This document shows, piece after piece, positions 13,526 to 61,406 of a stretch of 64,000 nucleotides of DNA (the first letter of the stretch is position 1; each line of letters starts with the position of its first letter). This stretch comes from Rhodocyclaceae bacterium (lineage in GTDB: Bacteria; Pseudomonadota; Gammaproteobacteria; Burkholderiales; Rhodocyclaceae), in NCBI GenBank assembly GCA_006218025.1, contig VBWA01000004.1, positions 62,001 to 126,000 on the forward strand, read 5' to 3'. Position numbers and translations under genes: made by a program. The notes under the pieces are model-generated. The model searched no databases. It was not told where the DNA came from and saw only the letters and a list, made by a program, of their open reading frames with translations.

Positions 13526-13564
13526 GAAAGTCGGCGCTGGCGGTACGGCGCTGGCGGTACGGCG
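13526..13564 (+). repeat. Dispersed bipartite repeat with tandem extension
   Basis: The full core AGTCGGCGCTGG-CGGT-ACGGCG is followed directly by a second CTGGCGGTACGGCG, so a 15-base unit is duplicated in tandem. It lies between the LysE-like gene and an MFS gene, outside any coding frame. It is the only copy with an internal duplication. Confidence 0.9.
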
Positions 13565-13733
13565 ATTGGGCGCGCCGATGGATGCGGCTTTGGCGCGCAG
13601 GCTGTTCACGCGACCGGCGAGTGCTGATTCGAGGAATGACATCAAGTAGAGTACGTCCTTCGCAAACCGTGACACCGCCACCGGCCCCGGAATTTCCTGA
13701 ATTCAAGCGGGCGGGATAGATCAAACAAGACTC

Positions 13734-14939
13734 ATGAGATTCATTCGTATCGCACCTGCGTTCATCGTCATTCTGTCCGGGGTGGTCGCCGCCCTGCATA
13801 TCGGAAAGATGCCGCCGGCGATTCCGGTATTGCGCGAAGCGCTGGGGATGACGCTGGTCGAGGCCGGCTTCCTGCTGTCGATGGTGCAACTGGCCGGGAT
13901 GACGGTGGGCGTGCTGGTCGGCGTCGCCACGGACAGCGTCGGTCGGCGGCGCAGCATCATCGCCGGTCAGCTGATCCTCGCCATCGCCAGCGTCAGCGGC
14001 ATGTGGGCGCAGCACCCGGCCGATTTGCTGCTGCTGCGGGCTTTCGAAGGCCTCGGTTTTCTGCTGGTGGTGCTGCCTGCGCCCAGCGTGATCCGTCAAC
14101 TGGTGCCGCTGACCCAACTGGCATTTCATCTCGGACTCTGGGGCACCTATATGCCCACCGGCACCGCACTGGCGCTGTTCTGCGCACCCGCCATGATGAG
14201 TCTCCTCGACTGGCACGGTTGGTGGGGCCTGCTCGGCGGGTTCTCGGCGGCGATGGCGCTGTGGGTTTTTCTGCAAGTGCCGCCGGAACACAAAGACCGC
14301 GCTGCGGCACCGGCCGCAAGCCCTGCGGCGGCCGGCGATGCCTGGTGGCAGCGCCTGCGCCTGACCCTCAGCAGCTCGGGCCCGTGGCGCGTCGCGATCG
14401 CCTTTCTGTTGTATTCCAGCCAGTGGCTGGCGGTGATCGGTTTCCTGCCTTCGATCTACGCCCAGGCCGGACTGAGCGGCCAGATGGCGGGCTCGCTGAC
14501 CGCCCTGGCTTCCCTGGTCAATATCACGGGCAACATCGCCGCGGGCCGCCTGCTGCATCGCGGCGTTTCGGCCCGGCACCTGTTGTATGTCGGCTTCGGC
14601 ACCATGGGCGTGGCCACGTTTCTCGCCTTCGGCCAACTGACCAGCGAGGCGCCGGCCATCCGCTACCTCGCCGTGCTGATGTTCTCCTCGGTCGGCGGCG
14701 TTATCCCCGGCACACTGTTCTCGTTGGCGGTGCATGTGGCGCCGAGCGAGCGAACGGTGACGACGACGGTCGGCTGGATGCAGCAATGCTCGGCCACCGG
14801 GCAATTCCTCGGCCCGCCGCTGGTGGCATGGCTGGCCAGCCAGACCGGCGGCTGGCACTGGACCTGGGTCGCCACCGGGATCGCCTCGCTGATCGGCTTG
14901 CTGCTGGCGAGGGGCGTCAATTTCACTAGGCATGCTTGA
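13734..14939 (+). CDS. MFS transporter
   Basis: Encodes 401 residues with about twelve hydrophobic helices and a central hydrophilic loop near residues 190-215. The loop-2/3 motif appears as GVATDSVGRRRSI, the major facilitator signature. The overall pattern is closest to the CynX/NimT-type small-anion or drug carriers, but the substrate cannot be told. It stands alone, flanked on both sides by copies of the dispersed repeat. Confidence 0.85.
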   Translation: MRFIRIAPAFIVILSGVVAALHIGKMPPAIPVLREALGMTLVEAGFLLSMVQLAGMTVGVLVGVATDSVGRRRSIIAGQLILAIASVSGMWAQHPADLLLLRAFEGLGFLLVVLPAPSVIRQLVPLTQLAFHLGLWGTYMPTGTALALFCAPAMMSLLDWHGWWGLLGGFSAAMALWVFLQVPPEHKDRAAAPAASPAAAGDAWWQRLRLTLSSSGPWRVAIAFLLYSSQWLAVIGFLPSIYAQAGLSGQMAGSLTALASLVNITGNIAAGRLLHRGVSARHLLYVGFGTMGVATFLAFGQLTSEAPAIRYLAVLMFSSVGGVIPGTLFSLAVHVAPSERTVTTTVGWMQQCSATGQFLGPPLVAWLASQTGGWHWTWVATGIASLIGLLLARGVNFTRHA

Positions 14940-14970
14940 GCCCGTATTGCGCAGGGCGCAGCACTGAGGG

Positions 14971-15010
14971 ACCGGCTTGCCGGTGAAAGTCGGCGCTGGC
15001 AATACGGCGA
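14971..15010 (+). repeat. Dispersed bipartite repeat preceded by a hairpin
   Basis: GAAAGTCGGCGCTGG-CAAT-ACGGCGAC spans 14985-15011, directly after a perfect ACCGGC-TT-GCCGGT hairpin (14971-14984). It begins about 32 bases after the MFS stop. In this copy the ends GTCGGCG and CGGCGAC can pair imperfectly (six of seven), giving a small stem with a 9-base loop. Confidence 0.9.
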
Positions 15011-15103
15011 CCCAGCGACGCAATGTCCGCATGCGCGTAAGATGTCGCCCTTTCCGTGGTCGCCGCCTTGCCGCAATGACCCGGCCCTTGCCGAGAAGCC
15101 ACC

Positions 15104-16120
15104 ATGCCTGATTCCCTCGTTCCACTGCTCGCGAAAGCATTCGATGCCCGCGCCGACCTCCTGCCGCGCCTGCATGCCGAGCAGACCGATGCCTACCGCC
15201 TGTTCCACGGCAGCGTCGAGGGCCATCCCGGCCTGACCATCGACCGCTACGGCGACCTGCTGCTGGTGCAGTGCTTCCACAGCCCGCTGGCGCCGGAAAC
15301 GCTGGCCGCCGTGGAGGGCTTTTACGCCGCCCGGCTGCCGGGCCTGGCGCTGGTCTACAACGATCGCAGCCACGCCAATTCGCGCATCGGCAATCCGCTG
15401 CTGGGCGATCAGCTCGAAGCGGCGATGATGGCGCGCGAGATGCACGAGATGGGCGTCACCTACCGCATCGCCGGACGCCATGCCGGGCAGGACCCCTGGC
15501 TGTTTCTCGACCTGCGCGCCGCACGGCGGCGGGTGATGCAGGAAGCGCCGGGCAAGTCGCTGCTCAACCTGTTCGCCTACACCTGCGGCGTCGGCGTCGC
15601 GGCGGCCAAGGCCGGAGCGCGCTTCGTCGTCAATGTCGATTTCGCCGACTCCAGCATCATGATCGGCAAGGAGAACGCGCGCCTCAACGATCTGCCGGTG
15701 CGCCCGCGCTTCGTCAAGTGCGACGCCTTCGCCGCGATGCGCCAGTACGCGGGCATCGGCCAGCCCGAGCGGGTGCGCGGCAAGGTCATGCCTCCTTTCC
15801 CCAAACTCGACGCGCAGACCTTCGACCTGGTGTTCCTCGATCCGCCGCGCTATGCCAAGAGCGTCTTTGGCGTGGTCGACCTGATCAACGACTACGCCTC
15901 GGTGTTCAAGCCGGCCCTGCTGTGCACCAGCGCAGGCGGCACGCTGATCTGCACCAACAACGTGGCCGACGTGCAGCGCGATGTCTGGCTCGACCAGTTG
16001 CAGCGCAGCGCCGCCAAGGCCGGCCGGCCGATCCGCGAGATGGAATGGATCATGCCGGAGGCCGACTTCCCGAGTTCCGACGGCCAGCCGCCGCTGAAGG
16101 TTGCCCTGTTGCGGGTTTGA
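15104..16120 (+). CDS. Class I SAM-dependent rRNA methyltransferase-like protein
   Basis: Encodes 338 residues. The SAM-binding fold is seen in LLNLFAYTCGVGVAAAKAGA and NVDFADSSI, with the catalytic-type motif FLDPPRYAKS and the later GGTLICTNN strand. It resembles the RlmI/RlmK family of 23S rRNA cytosine or guanine methyltransferases but lacks an evident N-terminal PUA domain; HPGLTIDRYGDLLLVQ near the start matches the family's EEA-like region. The exact target base cannot be stated. The thioredoxin-like gene follows after 17 bases. Confidence 0.8.
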   Translation: MPDSLVPLLAKAFDARADLLPRLHAEQTDAYRLFHGSVEGHPGLTIDRYGDLLLVQCFHSPLAPETLAAVEGFYAARLPGLALVYNDRSHANSRIGNPLLGDQLEAAMMAREMHEMGVTYRIAGRHAGQDPWLFLDLRAARRRVMQEAPGKSLLNLFAYTCGVGVAAAKAGARFVVNVDFADSSIMIGKENARLNDLPVRPRFVKCDAFAAMRQYAGIGQPERVRGKVMPPFPKLDAQTFDLVFLDPPRYAKSVFGVVDLINDYASVFKPALLCTSAGGTLICTNNVADVQRDVWLDQLQRSAAKAGRPIREMEWIMPEADFPSSDGQPPLKVALLRV

Positions 16121-16137
16121 GGCCGGGGAAGTTCGCA

Positions 16138-16518
16138 ATGCACTTGAAGCAGAACGAGCAGAACGATGCAGCGACGGTGTTCGACGTCACCGAGGAGGAT
16201 TTCGACTCGGCCGTGGTCGCCCGCTCGCAGCAGACGCCGGTGCTGGTCGACATCGGCGCCGACTGGTGTGCGCCCTGCGTCGTGCTGGGGCCGCTGCTGC
16301 ACCGCCTGGCGCAGGGCTACGGCGGCGCCTTCCTGCTGGCCAACGTCGATGCCGACGAGAACATGCGCATCGCCGGAAGGCACCAGGTGCGCGGCTTTCC
16401 GACCGTGATCGCCTACAGCCGCGGCGTCGAAATCGACCGCTTCCACAGCGCCCAAACCGAGGGCTTTCTGCGCAAATTCATCGACAGCGTGATCGAACGG
16501 CACGGCGCCGGAGAATAA
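16138..16518 (+). CDS. Thioredoxin-like protein
   Basis: Encodes 126 residues with the classic WCAPC redox active site (about 43-47) and the cis-proline loop GFPTVIAY further on, the full thioredoxin fold. An N-terminal extension of about 20 residues (MHLKQNEQNDAATVFDVTEEDF) precedes the fold, as in many secondary thioredoxins. It would reduce disulfides in the cytoplasm, as no signal peptide is visible. It is probably co-transcribed with the upstream methyltransferase. Confidence 0.88.
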   Translation: MHLKQNEQNDAATVFDVTEEDFDSAVVARSQQTPVLVDIGADWCAPCVVLGPLLHRLAQGYGGAFLLANVDADENMRIAGRHQVRGFPTVIAYSRGVEIDRFHSAQTEGFLRKFIDSVIERHGAGE

Positions 16519-16626
16519 AAGCGGGCTTTTTGGCCCCGATTCTGGGATAATGCGCGGTTCTGCGGCCGAATCGAGCATTTTCAGCCCGCCTTTCCTCCGA
16601 AATTCCCTGCCACCCGCAGGCACGCC

Positions 16627-18522
16627 ATGACCACCTCCCAAGAAAATATCCCCACCGGGTTCGATACCCTCGGGCTCGCAGCGCCATTGCTCGCAGCCCT
16701 CGCCGATGTCGGCTACGAAACCCCGTCCCCGATCCAGGCGGCCTGCATTCCGCCGCTGCTGGCAGGCCACGACCTGCTCGGCGAGGCACAGACCGGCACC
16801 GGCAAGACGGCCGCCTTTGCCCTGCCGCTGCTGCAGAAGATCGACCTGAAGCGTGCCGTGCCGCAGGCGTTGATCCTGACGCCGACGCGCGAACTGGCGA
16901 TCCAGGTCGCCGAGGCGCTGCAGAAGTACGCCAAGCATCTGCCCGGCTTCCATGTGCTGCCGATCTATGGCGGGCAAAGCATGGTGGTGCAGCTGCGCGC
17001 GCTGTCGCGCGGCACCCATGTCATCGTCGGCACCCCGGGGCGCGTCATGGACCACCTCGAGCGCAAGAGCCTGGTACTCAACAACCTGTCGATGCTGGTG
17101 CTGGACGAAGCCGACGAAATGCTGCGCATGGGCTTCATCGACGACGTCAAGTGGATCCTCGAACACACCCCGGCAGAGCGCCAGACGGCTCTGTTCTCGG
17201 CCACCATGCCGGACGTGATCCGCCGCGTAGCGCGCGAGCACCTGCGCGAGCCCCAGGAAATCAAGATCCGCACGGCCACCTCCACCGTGGTCACCACCAG
17301 CCAGTCCTACTGCCAGACGCACAGCGGGCAGAAGCTCGAAGCGCTGACGCGCATCCTCGAAGTGGAAGACGACTTCGACGCCGCCATCGTCTTCGTGCGG
17401 ACCAAGACCGCCACCGTCGAAATCGCCGACAAGCTCGAAGCGCGCGGCTATTCCGTCGCGGCGCTCAACGGCGACCTGACCCAGGGCCTGCGCGAACAGG
17501 TGATAGAACGCCTGAAAGCCGGCACCATCGACATCGTGGTCGCCACCGACGTCGCCGCGCGCGGCCTCGACGTCGCCCGCGTCAGCCACGTCATCAACTA
17601 CGACGTGCCCTATGACACCGAGGCCTACGTGCACCGCATCGGCCGCACCGGCCGCGCCGGCCGCACCGGCCGCGCCATCCTGTTCCTGGCCCCGCGCGAG
17701 ATGTACATGCTCAAGCTCATCGAGCGCGCCACCAAGCAGAAGATCACGGCGCTGACCATGCCGACCCCGGGCGAGGTGGCCAACCGCCGCGTCGCCCAGT
17801 TCACGCAGCAGATCGTCGACATCATCAAGACCGAGAAGCTGGATTTCTTCTTCGACGTGGTGCGCCGCATGGAAGGCGAGCAGGACATCGCCGCCCGCGA
17901 AATCGCCGCCGCGCTGGCCTGGCTGGCAACGCGCGAACGCCCGCTGCAGATGCCCGGCGCCAGCGACCATGCGCCGCGCGAGACGGCCTCGACTCCAGCC
18001 GCCGTGTCACCAGCGCCGACTTTCAGCCGCGACACCGAACGCAAGCCGGACTTCAAGGCCCGCGCCAAGCCGGCCGAAGACTATCCGGCCGCCGAGCCGC
18101 GCCGCGAGCGCCCGGCGAAGGAAGGCCGCAGCGACACGCCGGTCAAGCAGCGCAGCTTCGCCGACGGCGCCACGATGCAACGCTATCGCATCGAGATCGG
18201 TCGCAACCAGGGCGTGCTGCCCAAGGAGATCGTCGGCGCGATCGCCAACGAAGCGGGCATCGCCGGCAAGGACATCGGCCAGATCAACCTGTTCGAAGAC
18301 TACAGCTCGGTGGAACTGCCGGCCAATCTGTCGGACGATCTGATGGACATCCTGCGCCGCATCCGCGTGCGCCAGTTCGCGCTCAAGACCCGCGTCATGG
18401 AGCCGGGCGAGTTTGTCGACACGCGCCCGCCGCGCCGTGCCGCGCCTGCCCGCGACGGCAAGAAGCCGGACTGGAAGAAGCCCGACGGCGCCAAGCCGGC
18501 GTGGAAGAAGCGGGAACGCTGA
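16627..18522 (+). CDS. deaD: DEAD-box RNA helicase with DbpA-type RNA-binding domain
   Basis: Encodes 631 residues. Helicase motifs in order: Q motif (SPIQAACIP), AQTGTGKT (54-61), PTRELA, DEAD (about 160-163), SAT, and HRIGRTGR (about 337). After an acidic/proline linker (about 440-510) comes the DbpA/CsdA-type RNA-binding domain (about 515-590) and a Lys-rich tail. It remodels structured RNA, probably during ribosome assembly or cold growth. The linker carries a reverse copy of the dispersed repeat, read as AVSPAPTF (about 459-466). Length and order match E. coli DeaD (CsdA). Confidence 0.92.
18001..18025 (-). repeat. Dispersed bipartite repeat inside the helicase linker
   Basis: On the minus strand this reads GAAAGTCGGCGCTGG-TGAC-ACGGC, continuing GG. 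It is translated in the gene's frame as AVSPAPTF, the same peptide as in the mnmC copy. It sits in a low-complexity linker where extra residues should be tolerated. Confidence 0.92.
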
Positions 18523-18557
18523 ACCCGCGCCACAGTTCAGAACGAGCAGGAGTTTTC

Positions 18558-19082
18558 ATGGCCATCTACAGCCTTGGTGACCTACAGCCCAGCCTCGGAC
18601 GCGACGTCTGGATCGCACCGAATGCGACCGTGATCGGCGACGTACGGCTCGGCGACTACGCCAGCATCTGGTGGAACGCCGTGCTGCGCGGCGACAACGA
18701 TACGATCAGCATCGGCGCCAACACCAATATTCAGGATGGTTCGGTGCTGCATGCGGATGAAGGCGTGCCGCTCACGCTGGGCGCCAACGTCACCGTCGGC
18801 CACATGGTGATGCTGCACGGCTGCACCATCGGCGATGAAACGCTGATCGGCATCAAGTCGGTGATTCTCAACAAGGCCGTCATCGGCCGCCATTGCATCA
18901 TCGGCGCCAACTCGCTGATCCCGGAAGGCAAGGTGATTCCCGAGCGCTCGCTGGTGATGGGCTCGCCGGGCAAGGTCGTACGCCAATTGAGCGACGCGGA
19001 AGTCGCATTTCTGCATGGCGCCGCCCAGGGCTATGTGGCGAATGCGCTGCGCTACCGCAGCGCGCTGAAACAGGAAGACTGA
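18558..19082 (+). CDS. Gamma-carbonic-anhydrase-like hexapeptide protein
   Basis: Encodes 174 residues built on left-handed beta-helix hexapeptide repeats ([49 protein letters not shown]). His residues in [14 protein letters not shown] fit the three-His metal site of the YrdA/PaaY/gamma-CA family. Activity in this family is uneven, so a carbonic anhydrase role is only likely. CAGGAG lies upstream of the ATG at 18558; the gene follows the helicase by 35 bases. Confidence 0.88.
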
Positions 19083-19083
19083 T

Positions 19084-19437
19084 TCAGCGCGGCACGGCGG
19101 GCTTCGCCGCGGGTTTCAACGTGGACGACGGCGCCGGCGACGGCTGCGACGAAGGCGCGAGCAGTGTCTTCTGCGGCACCTGGACGAAAATCTCGCCTTC
19201 CTTGATCATGCCCAGTTCATAGCGGGCGCGCTCTTCGATCGCTTCGTAACCCGACTTGAGATCGCGCACTTCGGCATCCAGCGCGGCATTGCGCTGTTCC
19301 AGTTTCTGATTGGTGTCGCGCTGCGCCTGCAACTGGCGGTCATAGTCCCAGACGCGGAGCCAGCCGCCCTTGCCCAGCCACAATGGATACTGCAGCAGGG
19401 CGATGAGGACGACCAGCACCAGCGTCGGCCAGTTCAT
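19084..19437 (-). CDS. ftsB: Cell division protein FtsB
   Basis: Encodes 117 residues: a short cytoplasmic start, one transmembrane helix (about 5-20, [17 protein letters not shown]), then a periplasmic coiled coil ([20 protein letters not shown]) and [14 protein letters not shown], all characteristic of FtsB. It forms the FtsQLB complex at the divisome. A Pro/Ala-rich tail of about 30 residues extends the usual length. It follows eno, as is standard in betaproteobacteria. The start at 19437 (MNWPTLVLV) is family-like. Confidence 0.92.
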
Positions 19438-19457
19438 CGCAGTGCGCGCAGGGCCGC

Positions 19458-21887
<2,430 letters not shown>

Positions 21888-21918
21888 GGTGTGGCTTTCC
21901 ATGTTGGGCCGCAGAGCT

Positions 21919-24400
<2,482 letters not shown>

Positions 24401-24498
24401 TTCAATGGGCCCGGAATCCAAAATGGAGAAGCTATCACATCGCCTCCCTGACGGGATTTTGCACAGCAGACGCGCCCGAAGCCGGGGTGCGTAGCGCG

Positions 24499-24504
24499 TA
24501 TAAT
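24499..24504 (+). promoter_or_regulatory. -10 element upstream of prfB
   Basis: A perfect TATAAT preceded by GCG lies 31 bases before the prfB ATG. No good -35 is seen at normal spacing. Confidence 0.5.
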
Positions 24505-24534
24505 TGTCGGCTTTCGCCCCGCGCAGGAACAGTC

Positions 24535-25639: not shown

Positions 25640-25668
25640 CTTATCAATTCCGCCATCGGACCATCATC

Positions 25669-27180: not shown

Positions 27181-27190
27181 TGCCGGAGTG

Positions 27191-29134
27191 ATGCCATCTC
27201 CGCTGGTTCCCGCCGAACCGGCGGCAGCCGGCGACGGCACGCTGTATTCAAGCATTTACGGCGATGTCTATCACGCGGCTCACGGGGCTCTGGCGCAGGC
27301 CCGCCACGTCTTCCTCGCCGGTAACGATCTGCTGGGGGAAAATGCGCGCTGGCACGGTACCGACCGATTTGTCATTCTCGAGACCGGTTTCGGCCTCGGC
27401 CTGAATTTCCTCGTCACCTGGCAGGCATGGCGCGAATCGAAGGCAAGCGGCCGGCTGCATTTTGTCTCTGTCGAAAAGCATCCCTTCCGCCGCGATGATC
27501 TGGCCCGTTTGCTGGCACCCTATCCTGAACTTGCATCCCTGTCCGGCGAACTGCTGCGGCAATGGCCGCCGCTTGTACCCGGCTTTCATCGCCTGCATTT
27601 CGACGACGGCAAAGTCACCCTGAACCTGCTCCTGGGCGATGCACAGGCCTTGCTGCCGCAACTGGCCGCCAGCGCCGATGCGGTCTATCTCGACGGCTTC
27701 GCCCCATCAAAGAATCCCGAGTTGTGGTCGCCTGCGCTGATCATGGCAATCACCCGGCTCTCCAAGCCCCGGGCAACACTGGCGACCTGGAGCGTGGTGG
27801 GCGAATTGCGCCGCACGCTGGAGCGTGCCGGCTGGGATTTGGAGCGCCGCCCCGGCTTTGCCCCCAAGCGCGAAATGCTGGTCGGGCGCCTTGAAAACGC
27901 CGTGTCACCAGCGCCGACTTTCCGCCTGTCGCAGCCACCTCGGGAGCGCCGCGCCATAGTCATCGGTGCCGGGCTGGCGGGTACCGCAATCAGCGAACGA
28001 CTGGCCAACCGCGGCTGGCAGGTCGAGCTGTTCGAGCGCCATGCTCAACCTGCACAGGAAGCCTCGGGCAACCCGGCCGGCATACTGCTGCCGCATCTGG
28101 CGAAAGACGATGCGCTGGCGGCGCGGCTGTCACGCGCCTGCTATCTGTATGCACTGCGCCGCTTCGCCGTCCTGGCCGCCGTGCGCTGGTCGCCCTGCGG
28201 CGTGCTGCAAGTCGCGCGCGACGCAGCGCACGAGGAATTGCAGCGTACGACGGTGCAAGAACTCAAGCTGCCCGAAGACTTTTGCGCCTTTCTCGAACAC
28301 GATGCCGCCCAGGCCCTGATCGGCCGTGAACTGGCGCACGGCGGCTGGTGGTTCCGCGGCGGCGGCTGGGTCAATCCGGGCAGCCTCTGTGCCGCCCTGC
28401 TGGCCGCCTGCGGCGCGCACGTCCGTCCGCATTTCAGCACGGAAGTCAGCGCACTGCGGCAGACGACAGACGCCTGGCAGGCGCTGGATGCCAATGGCCA
28501 ACTGCTGGCCAGCGCGCCTCACGTCATTCTGGCGAATGCCCACGCCGCCAACCGGCTGCTGTTCGACGCACTGCCCCTGACATCGATACGCGGCCAGATC
28601 AGCTATCTACCGGATCAGCTTCTGGAAGGCACTGGGCCGCCCCTGCATCACGTCGTTTGCCGCTCCGGCTACATCACGCCGCCGGACGCCGGCACGGTCT
28701 GCGTCGGGGCCAGCTTTGACAGCGGCGACACCGATCTGCGGATTCGCGCCGCCGACCACACCGGCAACTTGCGGCGACTGGACGAACTGCTGCCGGGCAC
28801 CGTCCATGGAATTGACATGCGCATCGATCCGGCACGGCTCGATGGCCGTGTCGGACTGCGCACGGCCGCCCCTGATCGACTGCCGCTGGTCGGGACGCTG
28901 CCCGACACGGAGGCATCCGCCCGAAACGACGCGACGCTCGACAGCCTGCCACGCCGGCACGGTCTGCATGCCCTGCTGGGGCTTTCTGCCCGTGGCCTGG
29001 TCTGGGCGCCGCTGGCGGCAGAACTGCTCGCGAGCCAGTTGGAAGGCGCCCCCCTGCCGATAGAGCGGGAACTCGCCAAGGCGGTTGATCCGGCCCGCTT
29101 CCACCTGCGCGCCCTGCGCCGCGGCCGCAACTAA
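27191..29134 (+). CDS. mnmC: Bifunctional tRNA 5-methylaminomethyl-2-thiouridine biosynthesis protein MnmC
   Basis: Encodes 647 residues in two domains. The N-terminal methyltransferase (about 1-235) has ETGFGLGLNFLVTWQA and VYLDGFAPSKNPELW; the C-terminal FAD-dependent oxidoreductase (from about 250) opens with VIGAGLAGTAISERLANRGW. Together they convert cmnm5s2U to mnm5s2U at the wobble base of several tRNAs. The linker carries a reverse copy of the dispersed repeat, read AVSPAPTF (about 237-244). The start ATG overlaps the second unit of an 11-base duplication beginning in lysS. Confidence 0.93.
   Translation: MPSPLVPAEPAAAGDGTLYSSIYGDVYHAAHGALAQARHVFLAGNDLLGENARWHGTDRFVILETGFGLGLNFLVTWQAWRESKASGRLHFVSVEKHPFRRDDLARLLAPYPELASLSGELLRQWPPLVPGFHRLHFDDGKVTLNLLLGDAQALLPQLAASADAVYLDGFAPSKNPELWSPALIMAITRLSKPRATLATWSVVGELRRTLERAGWDLERRPGFAPKREMLVGRLENAVSPAPTFRLSQPPRERRAIVIGAGLAGTAISERLANRGWQVELFERHAQPAQEASGNPAGILLPHLAKDDALAARLSRACYLYALRRFAVLAAVRWSPCGVLQVARDAAHEELQRTTVQELKLPEDFCAFLEHDAAQALIGRELAHGGWWFRGGGWVNPGSLCAALLAACGAHVRPHFSTEVSALRQTTDAWQALDANGQLLASAPHVILANAHAANRLLFDALPLTSIRGQISYLPDQLLEGTGPPLHHVVCRSGYITPPDAGTVCVGASFDSGDTDLRIRAADHTGNLRRLDELLPGTVHGIDMRIDPARLDGRVGLRTAAPDRLPLVGTLPDTEASARNDATLDSLPRRHGLHALLGLSARGLVWAPLAAELLASQLEGAPLPIERELAKAVDPARFHLRALRRGRN
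27899..27924 (-). repeat. Dispersed bipartite repeat in the mnmC domain linker
   Basis: On the minus strand it reads GGAAAGTCGGCGCTGG-TGAC-ACGGCG. It is in frame and falls exactly between the methyltransferase and oxidoreductase domains. It has the same central four bases and the same peptide as the helicase copy. Confidence 0.93.
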
Positions 29135-36252: not shown

Positions 36253-36277
36253 GAAGTCGGCGCTGGCAGGACGGCGC
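36253..36277 (+). repeat. Dispersed bipartite repeat in the queD promoter region
   Basis: AGAAGTCGGCGCTGG-CAGG-ACGGCG lies between the divergent radical SAM and queD genes and ends 12 bases before a perfect TATAAT. It therefore covers where the -35 element should be. Confidence 0.9.
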
Positions 36278-36957: not shown

Positions 36958-38589
36958 ATGCATGGCTTGATGATGAATCGGCCGCTGATGATTTCAGCGC
37001 TCCTGCAGCACGCCAGCCAGAACCACAGCGATACTGAAATCGTATCCCGCCTGCCCGTCGGGGGAACGCATCGCTATGCCTATCACGATGCCCACCACCG
37101 CTCGCGGCAACTGGTACGCGTCCTGCTGGCCCTGGGCGTCAACGCGGAAGACCGCATCGGCACGCTGGCCTGGAATACCCACCGGCATTTCGAGATCTAC
37201 TATGCCGTCTCGGGCATGGCCGCGATCTGCCACACCATCAACCCGCGCCTGTTCCCCGAGCAGATTGCCTACATCACCAACCACGCCGACGATCGCTTCA
37301 TCTTCTTCGACGTGAACTTCGCCGGTCTGGTCGAGGCGCTGGCGCCGCTTTGTCCCGGCGTCAAGGGCTGGGTCGCAATGTGCAGCCGCGACCAAATGCC
37401 GTCGAATGCGATACCGAGCCTGCTCTGCTACGAAGAGCTGCTGGCAGCGCAGAGCGACGACTACGAATGGCCGGAGTTCGACGAAAACACGGCGTCGTCG
37501 CTGTGCTACACCTCGGGCACCACCGGCAATCCCAAGGGCGTCCTCTACTCGCACCGCTCCACCGTGCTGCACGCATTTGGGTCGAGCCTGCCGGACGGGC
37601 TGGGAGCCTCGGCGCGCGAATGCATCCTGCCGGTGGTGCCGATGTTTCACGTCAATGCATGGGGTCTGCCCTACGCCGCGGCGTTGACCGGCGCGAAGCT
37701 CGTCATGCCGGGGCCGCATCTGGATGGCGCCAGCCTGTATTCACTGTTCGAGGCCGAAGGCGTCACCATGTCGGCCGGTGTGCCGACCATCTGGCTCGGC
37801 CTGCTGCAATACCTGCAAGCCAACAAGCTCAAGCTGTCCACCGTCAAGCGTCTGGTCATCGGCGGCTCGGCGGCGCCACCGGCCATGATCCGCGCCTTCG
37901 ACGAGCAGTTCGACATCACCGTGCTGCATGCCTGGGGCATGACCGAAATGAGTCCGCTGGGCACCGTCAACACCTACAAGAAGAAACATCTGGCACTGTC
38001 GGCGGAAGAACGCGACCGCATCCGCCTCAAGCAGGGCCGCAGCATCTTCGGCGTGGAGATGAAGATCGTCGACGGCAATGGCGATGCGCTGCCAAACGAC
38101 GGCAAGGCTTTTGGCGATCTGCTGGTGCGCGGCCCGTGGATCACCAGCGGCTACTACAAGAGCGAAGGCGGCGACCTGCGCAACGGCTGGTTTCCCACCG
38201 GGGACGTCGCCACCATCGATCCGGATGGCTACATGCAGATCACCGACCGTTCGAAGGATGTCATCAAGTCCGGCGGCGAATGGATTTCCTCGATCGACCT
38301 TGAAAACATCGCCGTGGCCCACCCGGCGGTTACCGAAGCCGCGGTAATCGGCGCACCCCACCCGAAGTGGGACGAACGCCCGCTGCTGGTCGTCATCAGG
38401 AAGGCCGGGCAGGAAGTCAGCCGTGAAGAGCTGATTGCCTTCTACGAAGGCAAGGTGGCGAAGTGGTGGATACCCGACGATGTGGTCTTCGTCGATGACC
38501 TGCCGCACACAGCCACCGGCAAGCTTTCCAAGTTGCAGTTGCGCGAGCGCCTGCGTGATTATCGTTTTAGCGACGGCCGCTCTGCTTAA
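36958..38589 (+). CDS. Acyl-CoA ligase (medium/long-chain fatty acid type)
   Basis: Encodes 543 residues of the AMP-binding (ANL) superfamily: P-loop-like [12 protein letters not shown] (about 181-192), [21 protein letters not shown], and the catalytic Lys near [15 protein letters not shown]. It activates a carboxylic acid to its CoA thioester via an adenylate. Sequence style matches AlkK-type medium/long-chain ligases. It has no signal peptide. A GST and an enoyl-CoA hydratase follow on the same strand, so the set probably works in fatty- or aromatic-acid oxidation. Confidence 0.92.
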
Positions 38590-38644
38590 CGCCGATAAAG
38601 CCGGCGTTAGCCTTTACTGAAACTTCGTTTTCCTGGAGCATGAA

Positions 38645-41593: not shown

Positions 41594-41619
41594 AAAAGTC
41601 GGCGCTGGTGACACGGCGA
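41594..41619 (+). repeat. Dispersed bipartite repeat after the BI-1 family gene
   Basis: AAAAGTCGGCGCTGG-TGAC-ACGGCGAC. Its ends GTCGGCG and CGGCGAC form an imperfect inverted repeat. It lies between the stop codon and the terminator hairpin, so it is transcribed in the 3' untranslated region. Confidence 0.93.
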
Positions 41620-41667: not shown

Positions 41668-41722
41668 TTATGTCCCCGCACTTCGCCGGAGACGGTATCC
41701 CCCGGCGGGATGCCAAGATCGG

Positions 41723-43726: not shown

Positions 43727-43990
43727 ATGAAGCAATCTCTCCTCGTAGCTGCCCTCCTCGCCCTGGCTGTCTCCGCTTGCGGCAAAACCGAAGCCCCGAA
43801 GCCCGCTGAAGCCCCCAAGGTCGAAGCTCCGAAGCCCGCTGCTGAAGCTCCGAAGCCCGCAGACACCGCTGCCGCTGCCGCCGCTGCTCCGGCTGCCGCT
43901 GCCGCCGCTGCTCCGGCTGCCGCCGCTGCCGCTGCTCCGGCTGCCGCTGCTGCTGCTGCCCCGGCTGCTGCCGCTGCCGCAAAGAAGTAA
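43727..43990 (+). CDS. Ala/Pro-repeat lipoprotein
   Basis: Encodes 87 residues. A lipobox (LAVSAC, Cys18) follows a short hydrophobic signal, so the mature protein begins CGKTEAPKP and is tethered to a membrane. It then has Lys-Pro-Glu-Ala repeats and four runs of seven Ala plus Pro before ending in AAKK. The DNA of the Ala runs is a 24-base tandem repeat, two units being identical. It looks like a flexible periplasmic spacer or a Lpp/OsmE-like minor lipoprotein; function unknown. Its own promoter and a strong terminator suggest high independent expression. Confidence 0.78.
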   Translation: MKQSLLVAALLALAVSACGKTEAPKPAEAPKVEAPKPAAEAPKPADTAAAAAAAPAAAAAAAPAAAAAAAPAAAAAAAPAAAAAAKK

Positions 43991-48950: not shown

Positions 48951-48952
48951 AG

Positions 48953-51872: not shown

Positions 51873-52861
51873 AACGACTGCTCCTGCTTTCAGTGCTGGT
51901 GCTGCTCGGCTCGGGTCCGCGAGCGGAGACTTACGCGCATCGAGATGATGTGCGGGCCTTTGTCCATGAAATGCATGAGAAGCATGGCTTCGATGCAGAG
52001 CATCTGCACGGGCTGTTCGGCCAGACCAAGCCGATCGCCGCGGTGATCAAAGCCATCATGCCACCCAAAGACCCCGCGGTGCGCTCCTGGCAGGCCTACC
52101 GGGGACGCTTTGTCGAGCCGAAGCGCATCGCCGCCGGGCGCCGTTTCATGCACGTCCATGCCGCGAAACTCGCGACGGCCGAGACGAGCTTCGGTGTCCC
52201 GGCCGAGATTATTGCCGCCGTGATCGGCATCGAGACCATCTACGGCAGGCAGATGGGCCGCTTCGGCACCTTTGCCGCGCTGACGACACTGGCCTTCGAC
52301 TATCCGCCACGGGCCGAATTGTTTCGCCGGGAGCTGGAGGAATTGCTGCTGCTGGCCCGCGAGGAACATCGCAGTCCCCTGGCCTACACCGGTTCCTACG
52401 CGGGCGCCCTGGGCTTGCCGCAGTTCCTTCCATCCTCTCGCCGGCGTTTCGCCATCGACTTCGACAATGACGGACGCATCGATCTCACGGCGAGCGCGGT
52501 CGATGCGATCGGCAGCGTGGCCAATTTCATGGCCGCGCACGGCTGGGAAAAAGACGGGCCGATCGCCGTCGCCGTCAATGTTGCCGGCGACGGCGTGCAG
52601 GCGCTGATCGATGAAGGCATCTCGCCGCAACGCACGCCATGGCAACTGGAAGCGGCCAATGTCAGCATTGCGGGAGTCGGCGCTGGCGATACGGCGATTG
52701 CCAACCGGCCGGCCGCCCTGATCGACCTGATCACTCCCGGCGCAGCCACGGAGTTCCGTCTCGGCTACAACAACTTCTACGTCATCACACGCTACAACCG
52801 CAGCAGTTTCTATGCGGCGGCGGTCATGGACCTGGCTGCCGAGCTGCGCGCTTCAAAGTAG
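51869..52861 (+). CDS. mltB: Lytic murein transglycosylase B
   Basis: Encodes 330 residues with a short signal peptide (SGPRAET). Catalytic Glu lies in IGIETIYGRQMGRFGTF, with ALGLPQFLPSSRRRFAIDFD and FYVITRYNRSSFYAAAV, all MltB signature. It cleaves peptidoglycan glycan strands to 1,6-anhydro ends. Unlike E. coli MltB it shows no lipobox, so it may be soluble (SltB1-like). A dispersed repeat is in frame near residue 270 (VGAGDTA). Its last 9 bases overlap the end of rpoS on the other strand. Confidence 0.92.
   Translation: MKRLLLLSVLVLLGSGPRAETYAHRDDVRAFVHEMHEKHGFDAEHLHGLFGQTKPIAAVIKAIMPPKDPAVRSWQAYRGRFVEPKRIAAGRRFMHVHAAKLATAETSFGVPAEIIAAVIGIETIYGRQMGRFGTFAALTTLAFDYPPRAELFRRELEELLLLAREEHRSPLAYTGSYAGALGLPQFLPSSRRRFAIDFDNDGRIDLTASAVDAIGSVANFMAAHGWEKDGPIAVAVNVAGDGVQALIDEGISPQRTPWQLEAANVSIAGVGAGDTAIANRPAALIDLITPGAATEFRLGYNNFYVITRYNRSSFYAAAVMDLAAELRASK
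52675..52698 (+). repeat. Dispersed bipartite repeat inside mltB
   Basis: AGTCGGCGCTGG-CGAT-ACGGCGAT, translated VGAGDTAI. It lies in a region between the catalytic core and the terminal NFYVITRYNRS block, probably a surface loop. Confidence 0.92.
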
Positions 52862-53767: not shown

Positions 53768-53773
53768 GGCAGA

Positions 53774-55377: not shown

Positions 55378-56123
55378 TTGTCCAGCTTGAGCCAACTGCG
55401 TACGCCGGCAAGCTGCGCGGCATGGGTGAGATCGATCTGCAGCGGGGTGACCGACACCCAGCCGTGCTCCACCGCGTGGAAATCCGTGCCTTCGCCGGCA
55501 TCGGCGGCCGGACCGGCGGCGCCGATCCAGTACAGCGTCTCGCCGCGCGGACTGACCGACTTCACTGCCGGCTCCGCCTTGTGGCGGCGTCCCAACCGCG
55601 TGACCTGGATGCCGCGCAATTCCTCATAAGGAACGTCCGGCACGTTGACGTTCAACAGGATCGGCTCGGCGAACGGCGTCTTGCTGAAACGCTGCACGAG
55701 TTCGCGCGCCACGCGGCCGGCGGTGGCGAAATGCTTGCCCTCGAAGCTTCCCAGCGAAATCGCGATCGAAGGTACACCGAGCAGATACCCTTCAGTGGCC
55801 GCCGCGACGGTCCCGGAATAGATCGTGTCGTCGCCCATGTTGGCGCCGAGATTGATGCCCGACACCACCATGTCCGGCTGGTGATCCAGCACGCCGGTTA
55901 CCGCCAGATGCACGCAATCCGACGGCGTGCCGCTGACATACATGTAGCCATTGGCTGCCCGCCGCAAGTGCATCGGACGATCCAGTGTCAATGAATTGCT
56001 GGCGCCGCTGCGGTTCAGCTCCGGCGCCACCACCGAAATATCGCCTAGGTCCGCGAGGCTGGTCGCAAGTTGGGCGAGCCCCGGCGCGAAATAGCCGTCG
56101 TCGTTGCTGAGCAATATGCGCAT
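55374..56123 (-). CDS. surE: 5'/3'-nucleotidase SurE
   Basis: Encodes 249 residues. It starts [16 protein letters not shown], with the metal site [12 protein letters not shown], and [19 protein letters not shown]. It dephosphorylates nucleotides in stationary phase. First gene of the surE-pcm-nlpD-rpoS run. Confidence 0.96.
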
Positions 56124-56273
56124 GGGGGTCTGAGTCGCGAAGATCTGGAAAACCGGTGCTCATTTTAGCCCATCGCAGCCCGCTGCCGATGACCGGAAAA
56201 GAACAGGACTACGCCTCCATCCCGATTCTGACGGCAGGCCAGGACTCCAGGTGCAGCGAACGGCAATCAGGGG

Positions 56274-56308
56274 CTACTCTGCGCTCGGGCGCTCCGGGCG
56301 CAGAGTAG
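56274..56308 (+). promoter_or_regulatory. Perfect hairpin ending at a ribosome-binding site
   Basis: CTACTCTGCGC and GCGCAGAGTAG are perfect 11-base arms around a 13-base loop. The right arm ends at 56308 and shares bases with an AGGA-type ribosome site 10 bases before the next start codon, so folding could hide it. Confidence 0.5.
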
Positions 56309-56319
56309 GATTACGGACA

Positions 56320-57456
56320 ATGGAAATAGTCCTGCACGGCGCAGCCACCGACATCCCCGAAACCGACTGGAACCTCCTCGACCACGGCGAAGATCCTTTC
56401 GTCAGCCGCGCATTCCTGGGCACCGCGGAGAAAGTCGGCGCTGGCGGCACGGCGTTGGGCTGGCAGGCGCAGCATCTGGCCCTGTATGACGGCGATCTGC
56501 TGGCGGGGCTGCTGCCGCTCTACCTGCGCACCCATTCCTTCGGCGACTTCTCGCGGGACTGGAACTGGCCGTCGGCCTGGCAACGCGCCGGACTCGACTA
56601 TTACCCGAAGCTGGTCAGCGGCATACCCTATACGCCCTCGCCGGGGCCGCGTCTGCTGGTGCGGCGGGGCATCCAACGGGAAGCCGTGGCGCCTGCGCTG
56701 ATCGAGTCCGCCCTCGAAGTCACCCGCCAGCTCGGCGCATCCTCGTGGCAATGCCTGTTTGTCGAAGAAGCCGATCGCGGCTTGCTCGCAGCAGCCGGGC
56801 TGCTGATGCGGCGCGGCGTGCAATTCCACTGGTTCAATCGGGCCTACCGCGATTTCGACGACTTCCTCGCCGGCTTCACCGCCGACAAGCGCAAGAAACT
56901 CAAGCGCGAGCGCCGCCTGGTGCGCGAATCCGGCCTGAGGCTGGAAGCCCGGCATGGCGACGAAATTGACGCATCCCTATGGCATGTCATCCACCGCCAG
57001 TATCGCGACACCTTTGCCCGCTATGGCAATCACCCGGCCTTCCCCGTGGAGTTCTTCATTGAAGCGGGCGCCCTGCTCGCCCGGCGGCTGGTGGTCTTCA
57101 TCGCCTTCATGGACGAGACGCCGGTGGCCTCGGCCATCTGCTACCGCGATGCCGGGACGCTCTTTGGCCGGCACTGGGGGACCGAGATCGAGATGCCCGG
57201 GCTGCATTTCGAGCTTTGCTACTACCAGGGTATCGAGTACTGCATCCGCCATGGCCTGCAGACCTTCGAACCCGGCGCGCAAGGCGAACACAAACTCGCC
57301 CGTGGATTCGAACCGGTGCCGACGTGGTCGGCATTCTGGATTGCCCACCCCGGCATGCGCCGCGCCGTGGCCGACTTCATCGTGCGCGAGGATTCGGCGA
57401 TGCAGGACTACGAAGCGGAAACCGCTACCCACCTGCCGTTCAAGGCGACAGACTGA
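56320..57456 (+). CDS. FemAB-like GNAT family protein (DUF482/COG3146 type)
   Basis: Encodes 378 residues of two GNAT-like halves. Segments FHWFNRAYRDFDDFLAGF, KRKKLKRERRLVRESG, GRHWGTEIEMPGLHFELCYYQGIEYC and FEPGAQGEHKLARGFEP match a family annotated as peptidoglycan recognition or biosynthesis. The substrate is unproven. A dispersed repeat is in frame at about 37-45 (KVGAGGTA). The ATG at 56320 is chosen over upstream in-frame codons because a hairpin lies there. Confidence 0.88.
   Translation: MEIVLHGAATDIPETDWNLLDHGEDPFVSRAFLGTAEKVGAGGTALGWQAQHLALYDGDLLAGLLPLYLRTHSFGDFSRDWNWPSAWQRAGLDYYPKLVSGIPYTPSPGPRLLVRRGIQREAVAPALIESALEVTRQLGASSWQCLFVEEADRGLLAAAGLLMRRGVQFHWFNRAYRDFDDFLAGFTADKRKKLKRERRLVRESGLRLEARHGDEIDASLWHVIHRQYRDTFARYGNHPAFPVEFFIEAGALLARRLVVFIAFMDETPVASAICYRDAGTLFGRHWGTEIEMPGLHFELCYYQGIEYCIRHGLQTFEPGAQGEHKLARGFEPVPTWSAFWIAHPGMRRAVADFIVREDSAMQDYEAETATHLPFKATD
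56429..56454 (+). repeat. Dispersed bipartite repeat inside the FemAB-like gene
   Basis: AGAAAGTCGGCGCTGG-CGGC-ACGGCG, translated KVGAGGTA. In the relatives I remember, this spot holds a Gly-rich stretch of the same length, so the repeat appears to replace rather than lengthen. Confidence 0.92.
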
Positions 57457-57477
57457 GCGCCCGTCGCAACCGAATCC

Positions 57478-57696
57478 TCAGTGATTGCCGGAGGCAATGG
57501 CGAACATCCGTTCGTTGCGCTTTTTCCGCGCCTCGTCGACCGTGAGGCCGACCAGGCTCTCCGGCGGCAAGGGCACGTCCCAGTGCTGCTGGAACAGATC
57601 CATGTCCTCGCCGGTATCGAGGTGCGCCCGGTAGACCTTCTCCTGCCACGCCGGTGCATTGGGCAGGGCAACCAGTTCGACGGATTCGATGCGCAT
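57478..57696 (-). CDS. Small hypothetical protein
   Basis: Encodes 72 residues beginning MRIESVELVALPNAP, with GAGGAT 7 bases upstream. It is acidic to neutral with WDVPLPPESLVGLTVDEARKKRN; there is no signal peptide. No family is recognised. It converges on the FemAB-like gene. Confidence 0.6.
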   Translation of the reverse strand: MRIESVELVALPNAPAWQEKVYRAHLDTGEDMDLFQQHWDVPLPPESLVGLTVDEARKKRNERMFAIASGNH

Positions 57697-57865
57697 GGGA
57701 TTATCCTCTTGAGGTCTGTGTTTTCCATCATCCTGCGCCAGGATTTGCCATGCTGTAATCGCGAAATTGGCAGGGAATGTCCTCTTGTTTCCGCTTCCCA
57801 AATGGCCCTGAACACGATCAAGGCCGCGGATCGCCACTCAAGCACCTGCAGTGGCTGTACCGCTT

Positions 57866-58096
57866 TTACTTGTCCTGGCGAAGCTCGCTCATTCGCCGCG
57901 CGTGGCTCCTGGCCTCGGCCGTATTCATTGCGGACACCTGACGGCCGAAGGCATCGCGGGCCTCCGTGGTCTTCTGCGTGGCCTGGATACTGCGGACACA
58001 ACGCCAGCGCTTGCCCGCCTTGGTTTCAATCTGGCGCATCTCCTCGACCGGATGACGTGCGCCGCAGTGGTAGCAGAATTTGGTTTGATTCGTCAT
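57866..58096 (-). CDS. Small zinc-ribbon-like hypothetical protein
   Basis: Encodes 76 residues. CYHCG near the start (8-12) with a later Cys at about 33 suggests a partial zinc ribbon, and the C-terminal half is basic and helical. The family is unknown. It lies downstream of the damaged tRNA-Pro on the same strand. Confidence 0.6.
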   Translation of the reverse strand: MTNQTKFCYHCGARHPVEEMRQIETKAGKRWRCVRSIQATQKTTEARDAFGRQVSAMNTAEARSHARRMSELRQDK

Positions 58097-58148
58097 ACGC
58101 GGAAACGTGAGCGAGAATAGAAACCGGACCGGCTAATGACCCGCCAAG

Positions 58149-58183
58149 GAAAAAGGGCTTCCGGCGATTAACCGGAAACCCTT
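58149..58183 (-). terminator. Terminator downstream of tRNA-Pro
   Basis: On the minus strand AAGGGTTTCCGG and CCGGAAGCCCTT pair with one mismatch around a 7-base loop, followed by TTTCC. It lies just past the CCA end of the tRNA-Pro remnant. Confidence 0.7.
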
Positions 58184-58191
58184 GGTATTGC

Positions 58192-58266
58192 TGGTCGGGG
58201 CGGCGGGATTCGAACTCGCGACCCCTTGCACCCCATGCAAGTGCGCTACCTCTGCGCGCCAGGAAT
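58192..58266 (-). tRNA. tRNA-Pro (GGG) with lost 5' acceptor strand; probable pseudo-tRNA
   Basis: Reading the minus strand, a D-arm (GCGC-AGAGGTA-GCGC), anticodon arm CTTGC-ATGGGGT-GCAAG (anticodon GGG), T-arm with GAGTTCGAATCCC, acceptor 3' strand CGCCCCG and encoded CCA are present. The expected 5' strand CGGGGCG is missing; the bases there (ATTCCTG) do not pair with the 3' strand, and the D-loop is short. It looks like a tRNA that lost its 5' end. A terminator follows. Confidence 0.6.
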
Positions 58267-58352
58267 TCCGCTTTGCCGGCGCGCGTCCCGCCTGACGATG
58301 CCGTCGCTTCGGGACATAAAGCGCAAGCCCCGGTGCAGAGCACGGGCCGATA

Positions 58353-58724
58353 TCAGGCAGCGCTGAGGAATTCGATGATGGCAGCGAGTTCGGCACGCAG
58401 TGATGCCCGGCTTCCCCCAGGCGAAGGCTCCGGCGCGTCATGTATCTTGCCGGGGCCATCCTCGAGACGGTTGCGCGCACCACTGATGGTGAAGCCTTCC
58501 TGATACAGCAGTTCGCGGATACGCCGCACCAGCAGGACTTCATGGTGTTGGTAGTAGCGACGGTTGCCGCGCCGCTTGACGGGCCGCAGTTGCGTGAATT
58601 CCTGCTCCCAGTAACGCAGCACGTGCGGCTTGACACCGCACAGTTCGCTCACTTCGCCGATGGTGAAGTAGCGCTTGGCGGGAATCGACGGAAGTTCGTC
58701 CCGGCTATGACTGGCCGTTGTCAC
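58353..58724 (-). CDS. MerR-family transcriptional regulator
   Basis: Encodes 123 residues from a GTG start. The MerR HTH is clear: [26 protein letters not shown] then [23 protein letters not shown]. The effector part is short, with no conserved metal Cys, so it resembles the ihfA-linked MlrA/CarA-type group. It overlaps the end of ihfA by 20 bases. Confidence 0.92.
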
Positions 58725-59010
58725 GCGGGAAAGCCTCGACCGCCGCCTTCAGCTTCTGGCTGGCGTGAAAGGTGACGACGCGGCGAGCCGTGATCGGTAT
58801 TTCCTCGCCGGTCTTGGGATTGCGTCCGGGGCGTTGCGGCTTCTCGCGCAGCTGGAAATTGCCGAAACCCGAGAGCTTCACGCTGTCGCCCTTCTCCAGC
58901 GCAAGACGCACTTCGTCGAAGAAGGCTTCGACCATATCCTTGGCTTCACGCTTGTTCAGCCCGACTTTTTCGAACAGGAGATCGGCGAGTTCCGCCTTGG
59001 TCAATGTCAT
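58705..59010 (-). CDS. ihfA: Integration host factor alpha subunit
   Basis: Encodes 101 residues. [25 protein letters not shown] is the DNA-binding arm with the prolines that kink DNA. It pairs with IhfB to bend DNA in recombination and transcription. It follows pheT by 17 bases. Confidence 0.96.
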
Positions 59011-59027
59011 ATCAGCTCCGACTGCAT

Positions 59028-61406
59028 TTATCCGCGCAAAGACGCATTGAAGTCGCGACGAGCGACTGCCAGCAGATTGGCGATCACCGCCTCGACTTCG
59101 GCATCCTCGAGAGTACGTTGAGTATCTTGTATAACTATACGAAAGGCAAGGCTCTTTTCGTTTTCGCCGAGCCCCTTTCCCTGATATACGTCGAACAGCG
59201 CAACATCGCGCACGATTACCGGGGCCGCAGCGCGAAGAGCCGTCAACAAGGGGGTCAGGGGCTGGCTTTGAGCCACCACCAGGGCCAGATCGCGGATCAC
59301 GGCCGGGAACCGTGAAACCTCATCATAGCGAGGGAATGGCGTCGCCAGCAGGGCCGCCAATTCCAGTTCGAAAACCACCGGAGCGGTACCCAGTTCGTAC
59401 TTTTGCACCCAGCCCGGATGCAGTTCGCCAAGAATGCCCACCGCTTGGCCATCCAGGCTGACAGTTGCACAACGGCCCGGATGCAGGGCCGGATGCCCGG
59501 CCTTGATGAATTCGAGGCGGCGCGGGGCGAACAAGGCCTCGACATCGGCTTTGATATCGTAGAAATCCACCCGGACGGTCGGTGCGCCCCATTGTTCGGG
59601 CAAGGCCGAGCCGGAGGCGAGACCCGTCAGGCGCAGGGGCTGGGCAAATCCACCAACCGGACCTGCGCCTGGATCTCTATGGAAGCAACGGCCCAGTTCG
59701 AAGATGCGGACCCGCTCCGTTTGCCGCTTGCGATTGGCGCCCAGGATCCCGACCAGGCCGCCGATCAGCGAGGAACGCATGACGCCCATCTGGCTGGCGA
59801 TGGGGTTGGCAAGCACGATGGGAGCGGCGTTGGCGGCGAAATCCGCTTCCCAGGCGGCCTCGACAAAACTGAAGGCCACCACTTCGTGATAGTCGCGCTC
59901 GGCCACCATGCGGCGCAAACTCATCGGCGTGCGGTTCGATTCCGTGGCCGGCATCATCGTCATGCTTGCCACGGGCGGCTGCGAAGGAATGTTGTCGTAG
60001 CCGTGGATGCGGGCGATTTCCTCGATCAGGTCTTCCTCGATTTCAATGTCGAAGCGAAAGGACGGTGGCGTAACGAGAAAATCGTCATTCTGCCGTTCCA
60101 CCATCAGACCCAAGCCTTTAAGCATGCCTTCGATGCGCTCCGCGCCGAGGCTGATGCCCAGCACTCTGGCGGCACGCGCCGTGCGGAGACGCACCGGCTT
60201 GCGCGATGGCAGATGTGCGGCGGAAACCGCTTCCGTCACCGGACCCGACTGGCCGCCGCAGGTCTCGAGGATCAGCTGCGTCGCACGCTCGATGGCCTTG
60301 CGCTGCAGTTCGAAATCGACGCCACGCTCGTAACGGTGCGAAGCGTCCGAGCTGAAGCCCAGCGCCCGGGCCTTGCCGGCGATTGCGGTGGGCGGGAAAA
60401 AGGCGCTTTCGAGGAACAGGTCGCGGGTCGAATCATTGATGCCCGAGTGCTCGCCGCCCATGACGCCGGCCATCGCCAGAGGCTTTTCGTCGTCGGCGAT
60501 CAATGCGGTGTCCGCCGACGGCGTCACGGTCTGTTCGTTCAACAGCAGCAGTTGCTCGCCGGGTTTGGGCTGGCGCACATGGATCGCACCGGAGAGTTCG
60601 GCATCGTCGAAGGCGTGGAGCGGCTGGCCGAGTTCGAGCATCACGTAGTTGGTGACGTCGACCAGGAAGGAAATCGAGCGGATGCCACTGCGTTCGATGC
60701 GCCGCTTCATCCATTCCGGCGTCGCGGCGCGGGCGTTGACGCCGCGGATAATGCGGCCGCAGTAGCGCGAGCACGAAGCGGGGGCATCCAGTACGACCTG
60801 GCGCGTGTCGGCAACCACCGCCTCGACCGGCTTGACCTCTGGCTCCAGGAGCCGCGCACCGGTCAGGGCCGAGAGTTCGCGCGCAATGCCGAGCAGCGAG
60901 AGACAGTCCGCACGGTTCGGCGTGAGCTTGAGGGTGATCAGGTGATCGTCGAGGTCCAGATGGCGGCGGATGTCCTCGCCGACTGTCGCGTCGGCGGCCA
61001 GCGGCAGCAGGCCGCCATGATCGTCGGACAGGCCGAGTTCGCGCGCCGAGCAAAGCATGCCGGAACTCTCGATGCCGCGCACCTTGGCCTTTCTGATCTC
61101 GATGCCCGGCAGCCTGGCGCCGACCCGTGCGCACGGCACCTTCATCCCTGCGGCGACATTCGGTGCACCGCATACGATCTGCAACGGACTGGCTTCGCCG
61201 ACATCGACTGAGCAGAGCTTGAGCTTGTCGGCATCGGGGTGCTTTTCGACGCTGAGCACTTCGGCGACGACGACGTTCGAAAAGTCGGCGCCGGCGGGAC
61301 GGCGTTCCTCGACTTCGAGGCCTGCCATTGTCAGTACATGGCAGAGTTCCTCGCTCGAAAGGGAAGGATTGCAGAGGCTGCGCAGCCAGGATTCGGAGAA
61401 TTGCAT
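59028..61406 (-). CDS. pheT: Phenylalanyl-tRNA synthetase beta subunit
   Basis: Encodes 792 residues with the N-terminal tRNA-binding domain ([21 protein letters not shown]), B3/B4 editing region and C-terminal FDX-ACB anticodon domain. It works with PheS to charge tRNA-Phe. A copy of the dispersed repeat lies in the N-terminal part, read RRPAGADFS, without lengthening the protein. It overlaps little with pheS (3-base gap). Confidence 0.97.
61279..61304 (+). repeat. Dispersed bipartite repeat inside pheT (one change)
   Basis: GAAAAGTCGGCGCCGG-CGGG-ACGGCG on the plus strand, with one base changed in the left arm. It is read in the pheT frame in a different register (RRPAGADFS) from the helicase and mnmC copies. 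Confidence 0.85.

Follow-up and report, generated by a model that had tools for sequence, protein, structure and literature searches.

Why should a 64-kb stretch of a bacterial genome carry the same oriented two-block motif again and again, within genes as well as between them? The stretch, hereafter the window, comprises positions 62,001 to 126,000 of contig VBWA01000004.1 of a Rhodocyclaceae bacterium, and the motif reads AGTCGGCGCTGG-N4-ACGGCG. An initial annotation, made from the letters alone, had suggested three roles: an uptake-signal-like sequence, a mini-mobile repeat, or a nucleoid or recombination site. The first of these is the reading that we favour. We consider it likely, on comparative grounds, that the motif works as a DNA uptake sequence, an independently evolved label of self DNA. 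This reading is based on the copy number, the use of both strands, an excess of perfect copies, a preferred reading frame, an enrichment in non-coding DNA and spellings that follow clades, and copies turn over in place by point changes. We do not assign the motif to the DNA uptake sequences (DUS) of the Neisseriaceae or the uptake signal sequences (USS) of the Pasteurellaceae, since it departs from either kind in its sequence and its layout.

The genome that contains the window (G000; 4.44 Mb in 141 contigs, from a genus that appears to be Sulfuritalea) harbors 386 exact copies, 197 on the plus and 189 on the minus strand, or one per 11.5 kb. The reversed pattern, used as control, has no copy, and independent bases at 63.9% GC would give 0.001. 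The several hundred copies per genome that had been extrapolated from the window are thus real. Anatomy was studied in a 463-kb sample of this genome with a simple custom gene caller. This sample holds 49, 22, 15, 10 and 28 copies at zero to four mismatches, compared with 0, 0, 1, 5 and 33 for the reversed control. The excess over the control drops steeply as mismatches rise, and it is the perfect copies that are in excess; the same steep drop from zero to one mismatch is described for H. influenzae and N. gonorrhoeae (Bakkali 2007; here and below, the cited papers are drawn on in part). Coding sequence makes up 88% of the bases, yet only 29 of the 49 exact copies are coding, while 20 lie within the 12% of non-coding DNA. 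Both strands and both kinds of DNA are used, as had been proposed. The coding copies lie on the strand of the gene in 18 cases and opposite to it in 11. A single frame, reading V-G-A-G-x-T-A, accounts for 16 of the 18 same-strand copies, and 8 of the 11 opposite-strand copies likewise share one frame. Orientation and gene-end biases have been described for uptake sequences (van Passel 2008).

Within the window, copies were matched on both strands with up to three mismatches. This gave 11 matches, while shuffled sequences gave a mean of 0.33 and a maximum of 2, which is well beyond chance. Eight matches are exact, two have one mismatch, and the remaining one, at 13543, is a tandem partial. The ten copies are:

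13529..13550, plus strand: exact, non-coding; a LysE-type gene ends 20 bp before it
14988..15009, plus strand: exact, non-coding; an MFS transporter gene ends 48 bp before it
18000..18021, minus strand: exact, within a DEAD-box helicase gene (16627-18522), opposite to the gene
27898..27919, minus strand: exact, within a methyltransferase/FAD oxidoreductase gene (27188-29134), opposite to the gene
36255..36276, plus strand: exact, adjoining the start of a radical-SAM gene
41597..41618, plus strand: exact, non-coding, between a Bax1-I gene, which ends 16 bp before it, and a convergent RNA methyltransferase gene
52675..52696, plus strand: exact, within the variable-length linker of a lytic transglycosylase (SLT_2) gene
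56433..56454, plus strand: exact, within a FemAB-like gene, reading V-G-A-G-G-T-A; T spelling in three T-dialect species
61283..61304, plus strand: one mismatch, within pheT, opposite to the gene
62233..62254, minus strand: one mismatch, within pheS, on the strand of the gene

The initial annotation had named the eight perfect copies and the ninth with one change correctly and had missed the one at 62233. Its plus-strand starts lay 0-4 bases early, because the GAAA or AAAA prefix had been counted in, and a limit of three mismatches does not recover its two weaker relatives (2506 and 3873). From the 49 copies of the 463-kb sample we derive an extended consensus of about C-R-A-R-AGTCGGCGCTGG-Y-G-R-N-ACGGCG-A-Y. 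In the copy at 13529 the second block is expanded to a 14-bp tandem of 2.4 units (13532-13564).

The spelling of the motif is clade-specific. Three of the 31 genomes of the genus use AGTTGGCGCTGR-N4-ACGGCG, with T in place of C at base 4 (261, 292 and 297 copies in G001, G015 and G027), and the other 28 have 0-4 copies of this form. In a quick tree of five proteins and 25 rows, these T-dialect species (loci L033, L036 and L032) form one clade with a support of 100 in the Shimodaira-Hasegawa-like approximate likelihood ratio test (SH-aLRT); the tree does not fix the position of this clade among the C-spelling species. The switch can be followed at shared places. The copies at 41597, 52675 and 56433 each carry T in all three species, the copy at 61283 in two of three (L033 has C), the copy at 62233 in one of three, and the copy at 36255 in the only species in which that place was seen, G027; the aligned place in G025 is decayed. 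Further spellings occur outside the genus. In 80 kb from genus g32, 6 of 7 one-mismatch copies carry T at base 7. Genome G132 of genus g43 scored only 3 copies in the family-wide search described below; a 200-kb sample of it contains 12 one-mismatch and 14 two-mismatch copies, of which 25 of 26 end in ACGGCA. The low count of G132 thus hides an ACGGCA dialect, and low counts in the family do not always mean absence.

All 31 genomes of the genus contain exact copies, ranging from 3 to 386: 25 genomes have 93-386, three have 27-35, and G016, G021 and G025 have 3, 36 and 61. The exact search in 30 genomes of other genera returned one copy in 4 of them and none in 26. A larger family sample of 395 genomes, 372 of them outside the genus, was searched with the C and T spellings both allowed. 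At least 20 copies were found in 27 of the 372, and the remaining 345 have 0-13. The motif-rich genomes outside the genus include all those sampled from g32 (one, 184 copies), g62 (one, 395 copies), g70 (four, 23-214 copies) and g88 (nine, 107-210 copies), and 12 of the 19 from g43 (36-379 copies). No copy at up to two mismatches was present in G034 (220 kb) or G036 (80 kb), and a de novo repeat search of low power, covering 20-80 kb from each of six other genera, revealed no comparable motif. Within the genus, the mismatch profiles of G025 (2, 5, 3 and 5 copies at zero to three mismatches in 147 kb) and G016 (0, 1, 5 and 1 in 186 kb) look like decay. G021, with 36 exact copies in 4.4 Mb and 7, 1, 3 and 3 at zero to three mismatches in 193 kb, is odd, as its mix of copies is explained neither by decay nor by a dialect. 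Decay in some close relatives, together with the patchy distribution in the family, argues for a dispensable trait such as competence.

On the uptake reading, the motif would let cells favour DNA of their own kind in natural transformation, competence and preference both being presumed here. Uptake would start when a receptor on the cell surface, probably a minor type IV pilin, binds both conserved blocks of free double-stranded DNA, the blocks being 12 bp and 6 bp long with centres about one helical turn apart. DNA with a better copy would be taken up and recombined more often, and copies would build up by point mutation and uptake bias wherever a gene tolerates them. If the preference of the receptor drifts, all copies would follow and dialects would appear; if the drive stops, copies would decay.

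How does the motif compare with established systems? According to part of Helsem 2025 (PMC12616744), the Neisseriaceae and Pasteurellaceae are the only families known to have such motifs, which number hundreds or thousands. The DUS of the Neisseriaceae, read by the minor pilin ComP, resemble our motif: they too run to hundreds of copies or more, use either strand, and lie in coding as well as non-coding DNA of a Betaproteobacterial host. They also have one-base dialects that follow clades, eight of them being described (Frye 2013), and pilins of the ComP_DUS type have matches in 30 of the 31 genomes of our genus. Unlike DUS, which are about 12 contiguous bases and number thousands per 2-Mb genome, the motif has 12- and 6-bp blocks around four variable bases at about 0.1 per kb, lacks the layout of inverted-pair terminators, and is accompanied by a pilin match that is not specifically ComP. 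With the USS of the Pasteurellaceae, for which ComN/PpdA is the predicted receptor, it shares a discontinuous extended motif of ~30 bp with a partly conserved flank (Helsem 2025, PMC12616744) and a reading-frame preference (van Passel 2008). The sequence is a different one, however, and its two blocks are equally fixed, whereas USS are flanked by weakly conserved AT-rich tracts. HIP1 of cyanobacteria is a highly iterated short palindrome, dispersed, not inserted and kept in genes. Our motif is likewise dispersed, not inserted and kept in genes; unlike HIP1 it is long and oriented. In the open-licence literature, we found neither the letters of the motif nor uptake sequences in Rhodocyclaceae, Rhodocyclales or Betaproteobacteria.

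Several observations weigh against an uptake function. Per kb, the motif is about tenfold sparser than the uptake sequence of Neisseria. Only five neighbouring pairs in the 463 kb lie less than 300 bp apart, two of them on the same strand, and inverted-pair terminators are not a feature of this sample; such pairs are frequent in the known families without being defining (PMC12616744). The spacing of copies is slightly even (coefficient of variation 0.81, against 0.96 with a standard deviation of 0.11 in simulations; P=0.07), a weak trend. The machinery also fails to discriminate. ComEC (PF03772) is present in 30 of the 31 genomes of the genus, which fits uptake, but in a mixed set it occurs in all 36 genomes, 16 motif-rich and 20 motif-poor; being equally present in motif-poor genomes, it does not separate the two. 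G016, which has 3 copies, retains ComEC, DprA and a ComP_DUS match, which for this genome gives no support to the idea that copies became few through lost competence genes. DprA scored above the cut-off in six of eight genomes, the two without such a score being G001 and the genome of the window. In the latter, contigs C104 and C86 break off at the expected dprA locus, beside a dispersed repeat, and the absence there may be due to this assembly gap. In favour of uptake, ComP_DUS (PF16732) gave matches in 30 of the 31 genomes of the genus and in 0 of 14 controls; these matches adjoin other pilin-like genes. When the pilin of the window's genome was compared with solved structures, all 17 matches were pilins or resembled them; ComP is not among their names, and the match that covers most of the globular part is PilE (4noa). 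Picking the receptor through the ComP_DUS matches did not succeed: the matched pilins are of several types and show no obvious relation to dialect or copy number, as judged without a formal coevolution test. Finally, open-licence papers contained nothing on natural transformation or an uptake sequence in Sulfuritalea.

The strongest competitor is a binding site for a chromosomal protein, such as a nucleoid organiser or a factor in segregation, replication or repair, that is needed every ~10 kb. Selection for binding would retain the copies, and a change in the protein would alter all sites, so that the dialect switch in one clade would follow here too. The motif is long, specific and built of two blocks, and the slight evenness of its spacing points the same way. 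Support for this reading, as for uptake, also comes from the site at 41597. It was traced in 26 of the 31 genomes of the genus; in four others the best matches included no orthologous locus, and a fifth was missing a flank. The gap between the flanking genes varies from 62 to 142 bp and the surrounding DNA diverges, yet AGTYGGCGCTGR-N4-ACGGCG is exact in 11 of 26 genomes, within one change in 19 and within two changes in 24, compared with 0, 0 and 0.003 in resampled sequences. The copy is absent from G008 and G016. The motif is thus kept at this non-coding place in 24 of 26 species. Strand usage, in contrast, does not suit such a site. On a 299-kb contig the 33 copies (16 plus, 17 minus) alternate freely between strands, and on the complete chromosome of G002 the subset with a CGRY middle splits into 30 plus and 32 minus copies across the initial 1.34 Mb, the part listed for both strands. 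An orientation by replichore, as in polar motifs of the KOPS or Chi kind, was rejected on this mixing of strands in G002. The scarcity and decay in complete close relatives (G016, G025) suits a dispensable trait better than a core function. Copy numbers within g43 span 0-379, though some low counts reflect another dialect. The nucleoid or recombination role suggested at the outset finds no strand polarity over these 1.34 Mb; we regard it as an unlikely though serious explanation.

A small mobile repeat, inserted hundreds of times, is a very improbable source of the copies. REP (repetitive extragenic palindromic) elements, which are moved by RAYT transposases, occur in hundreds of copies, each 20-30 bp long and forming an imperfect hairpin. 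Our motif is similar in number and size, its second half forms an imperfect inverted repeat (CGCTG...CGGCG) like those of REP hairpins, and non-coding DNA is enriched for it. An inserted element should leave matching empty sites. We therefore compared orthologous places all against all, using 31 sites from 26 named loci, one G016 contig and part of the window; the pairs counted are not mutually independent. The partner was within one change in 228 pairs and degraded, with at least two changes, in 206. The length was unchanged in 150 of the 206 degraded pairs, changed by less than 15 bp in 18, reduced by 15-45 bp in 8 and otherwise altered in 30; all 8 losses of 15-45 bp sit in the lytic transglycosylase gene (mltB), at its variable linker. 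Copies are thus gained and lost mostly by point changes in place, with no insertion footprint, and the mini-mobile repeat of the initial annotation is not supported. More than half of the copies lie within genes and in one frame, and insertion does not account for a concerted one-base switch in some 260-300 copies.

An RNA element, for example a 3'-end or terminator structure, is as poorly placed. Several non-coding copies lie no more than 50 bp from a stop codon, and the copy at 41597 has a terminator-like hairpin after it. Copies nevertheless point either way with respect to genes (in coding DNA, 18 along the gene and 11 against it), and ten RNA folds gave z-scores from -1.75 to +2.43, as a group no better than shuffles, so that the likeness to a folded RNA noted earlier was not borne out. 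A compositional or codon artefact, in which favoured codons spell a Val-Gly-Ala-Gly-rich peptide, would fit the frame of the 16 same-strand copies but is refuted by the 20 non-coding copies, besides the 11 on the opposite strand, the empty reversed control and the related G034 and G036 without the motif, and its chance is negligible.

Some further observations were made along the way. Directly past the 41597 copy, at 41668-41711, lies a second dispersed repeat, GC-rich and hairpin-like, with many partial copies across the genus. Two further dispersed families of about 70 and 130 bp (window 38567-38632; L217:10412-10546) have many copies and are common to G002 and the genome of the window, and a coding tandem array with a 24-bp unit (4.7 copies, 91% matches) occupies 43868-43980. 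In the samples of G016 (L111-L113, L180-L187) and G025 (L123-L125, L188-L193), both with few or decayed copies, 12-base words around GAGGCGCAGA are over-represented. In motif-poor genomes, 12 stretches from 10 genomes were chosen because copies lay close to one another among the matches listed, which is not a count; they lie near genes for a phage integrase, an AcrB-type efflux protein, a P-type cation ATPase and an ANTAR regulator (L395-L406), and such close copies may be tracts imported from motif-rich donors. At least 120 stretches of viral contigs contain the exact motif (L245-L324) and played no part in the argument.

In its fuller form the uptake reading describes a third independent code of self-recognition that occurs patchily across one large family of Betaproteobacteria, in three or more dialects (C, T and final A), its two blocks being read by a receptor unrelated to ComP and ComN; we lean towards this version with some reserve. 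A bolder variant is that the code may serve a genome-wide process other than uptake, with a drive of its own. If the uptake function is true, a preference for self DNA would have arisen a third time, in non-pathogenic freshwater bacteria, and the trait would be one that evolves repeatedly. The motif would offer a new system for finding a receptor by coevolution, and its dialects would trace gene flow. It would also mean that uncultured or slow-growing bacteria of the Sulfuritalea type exchange DNA by transformation.

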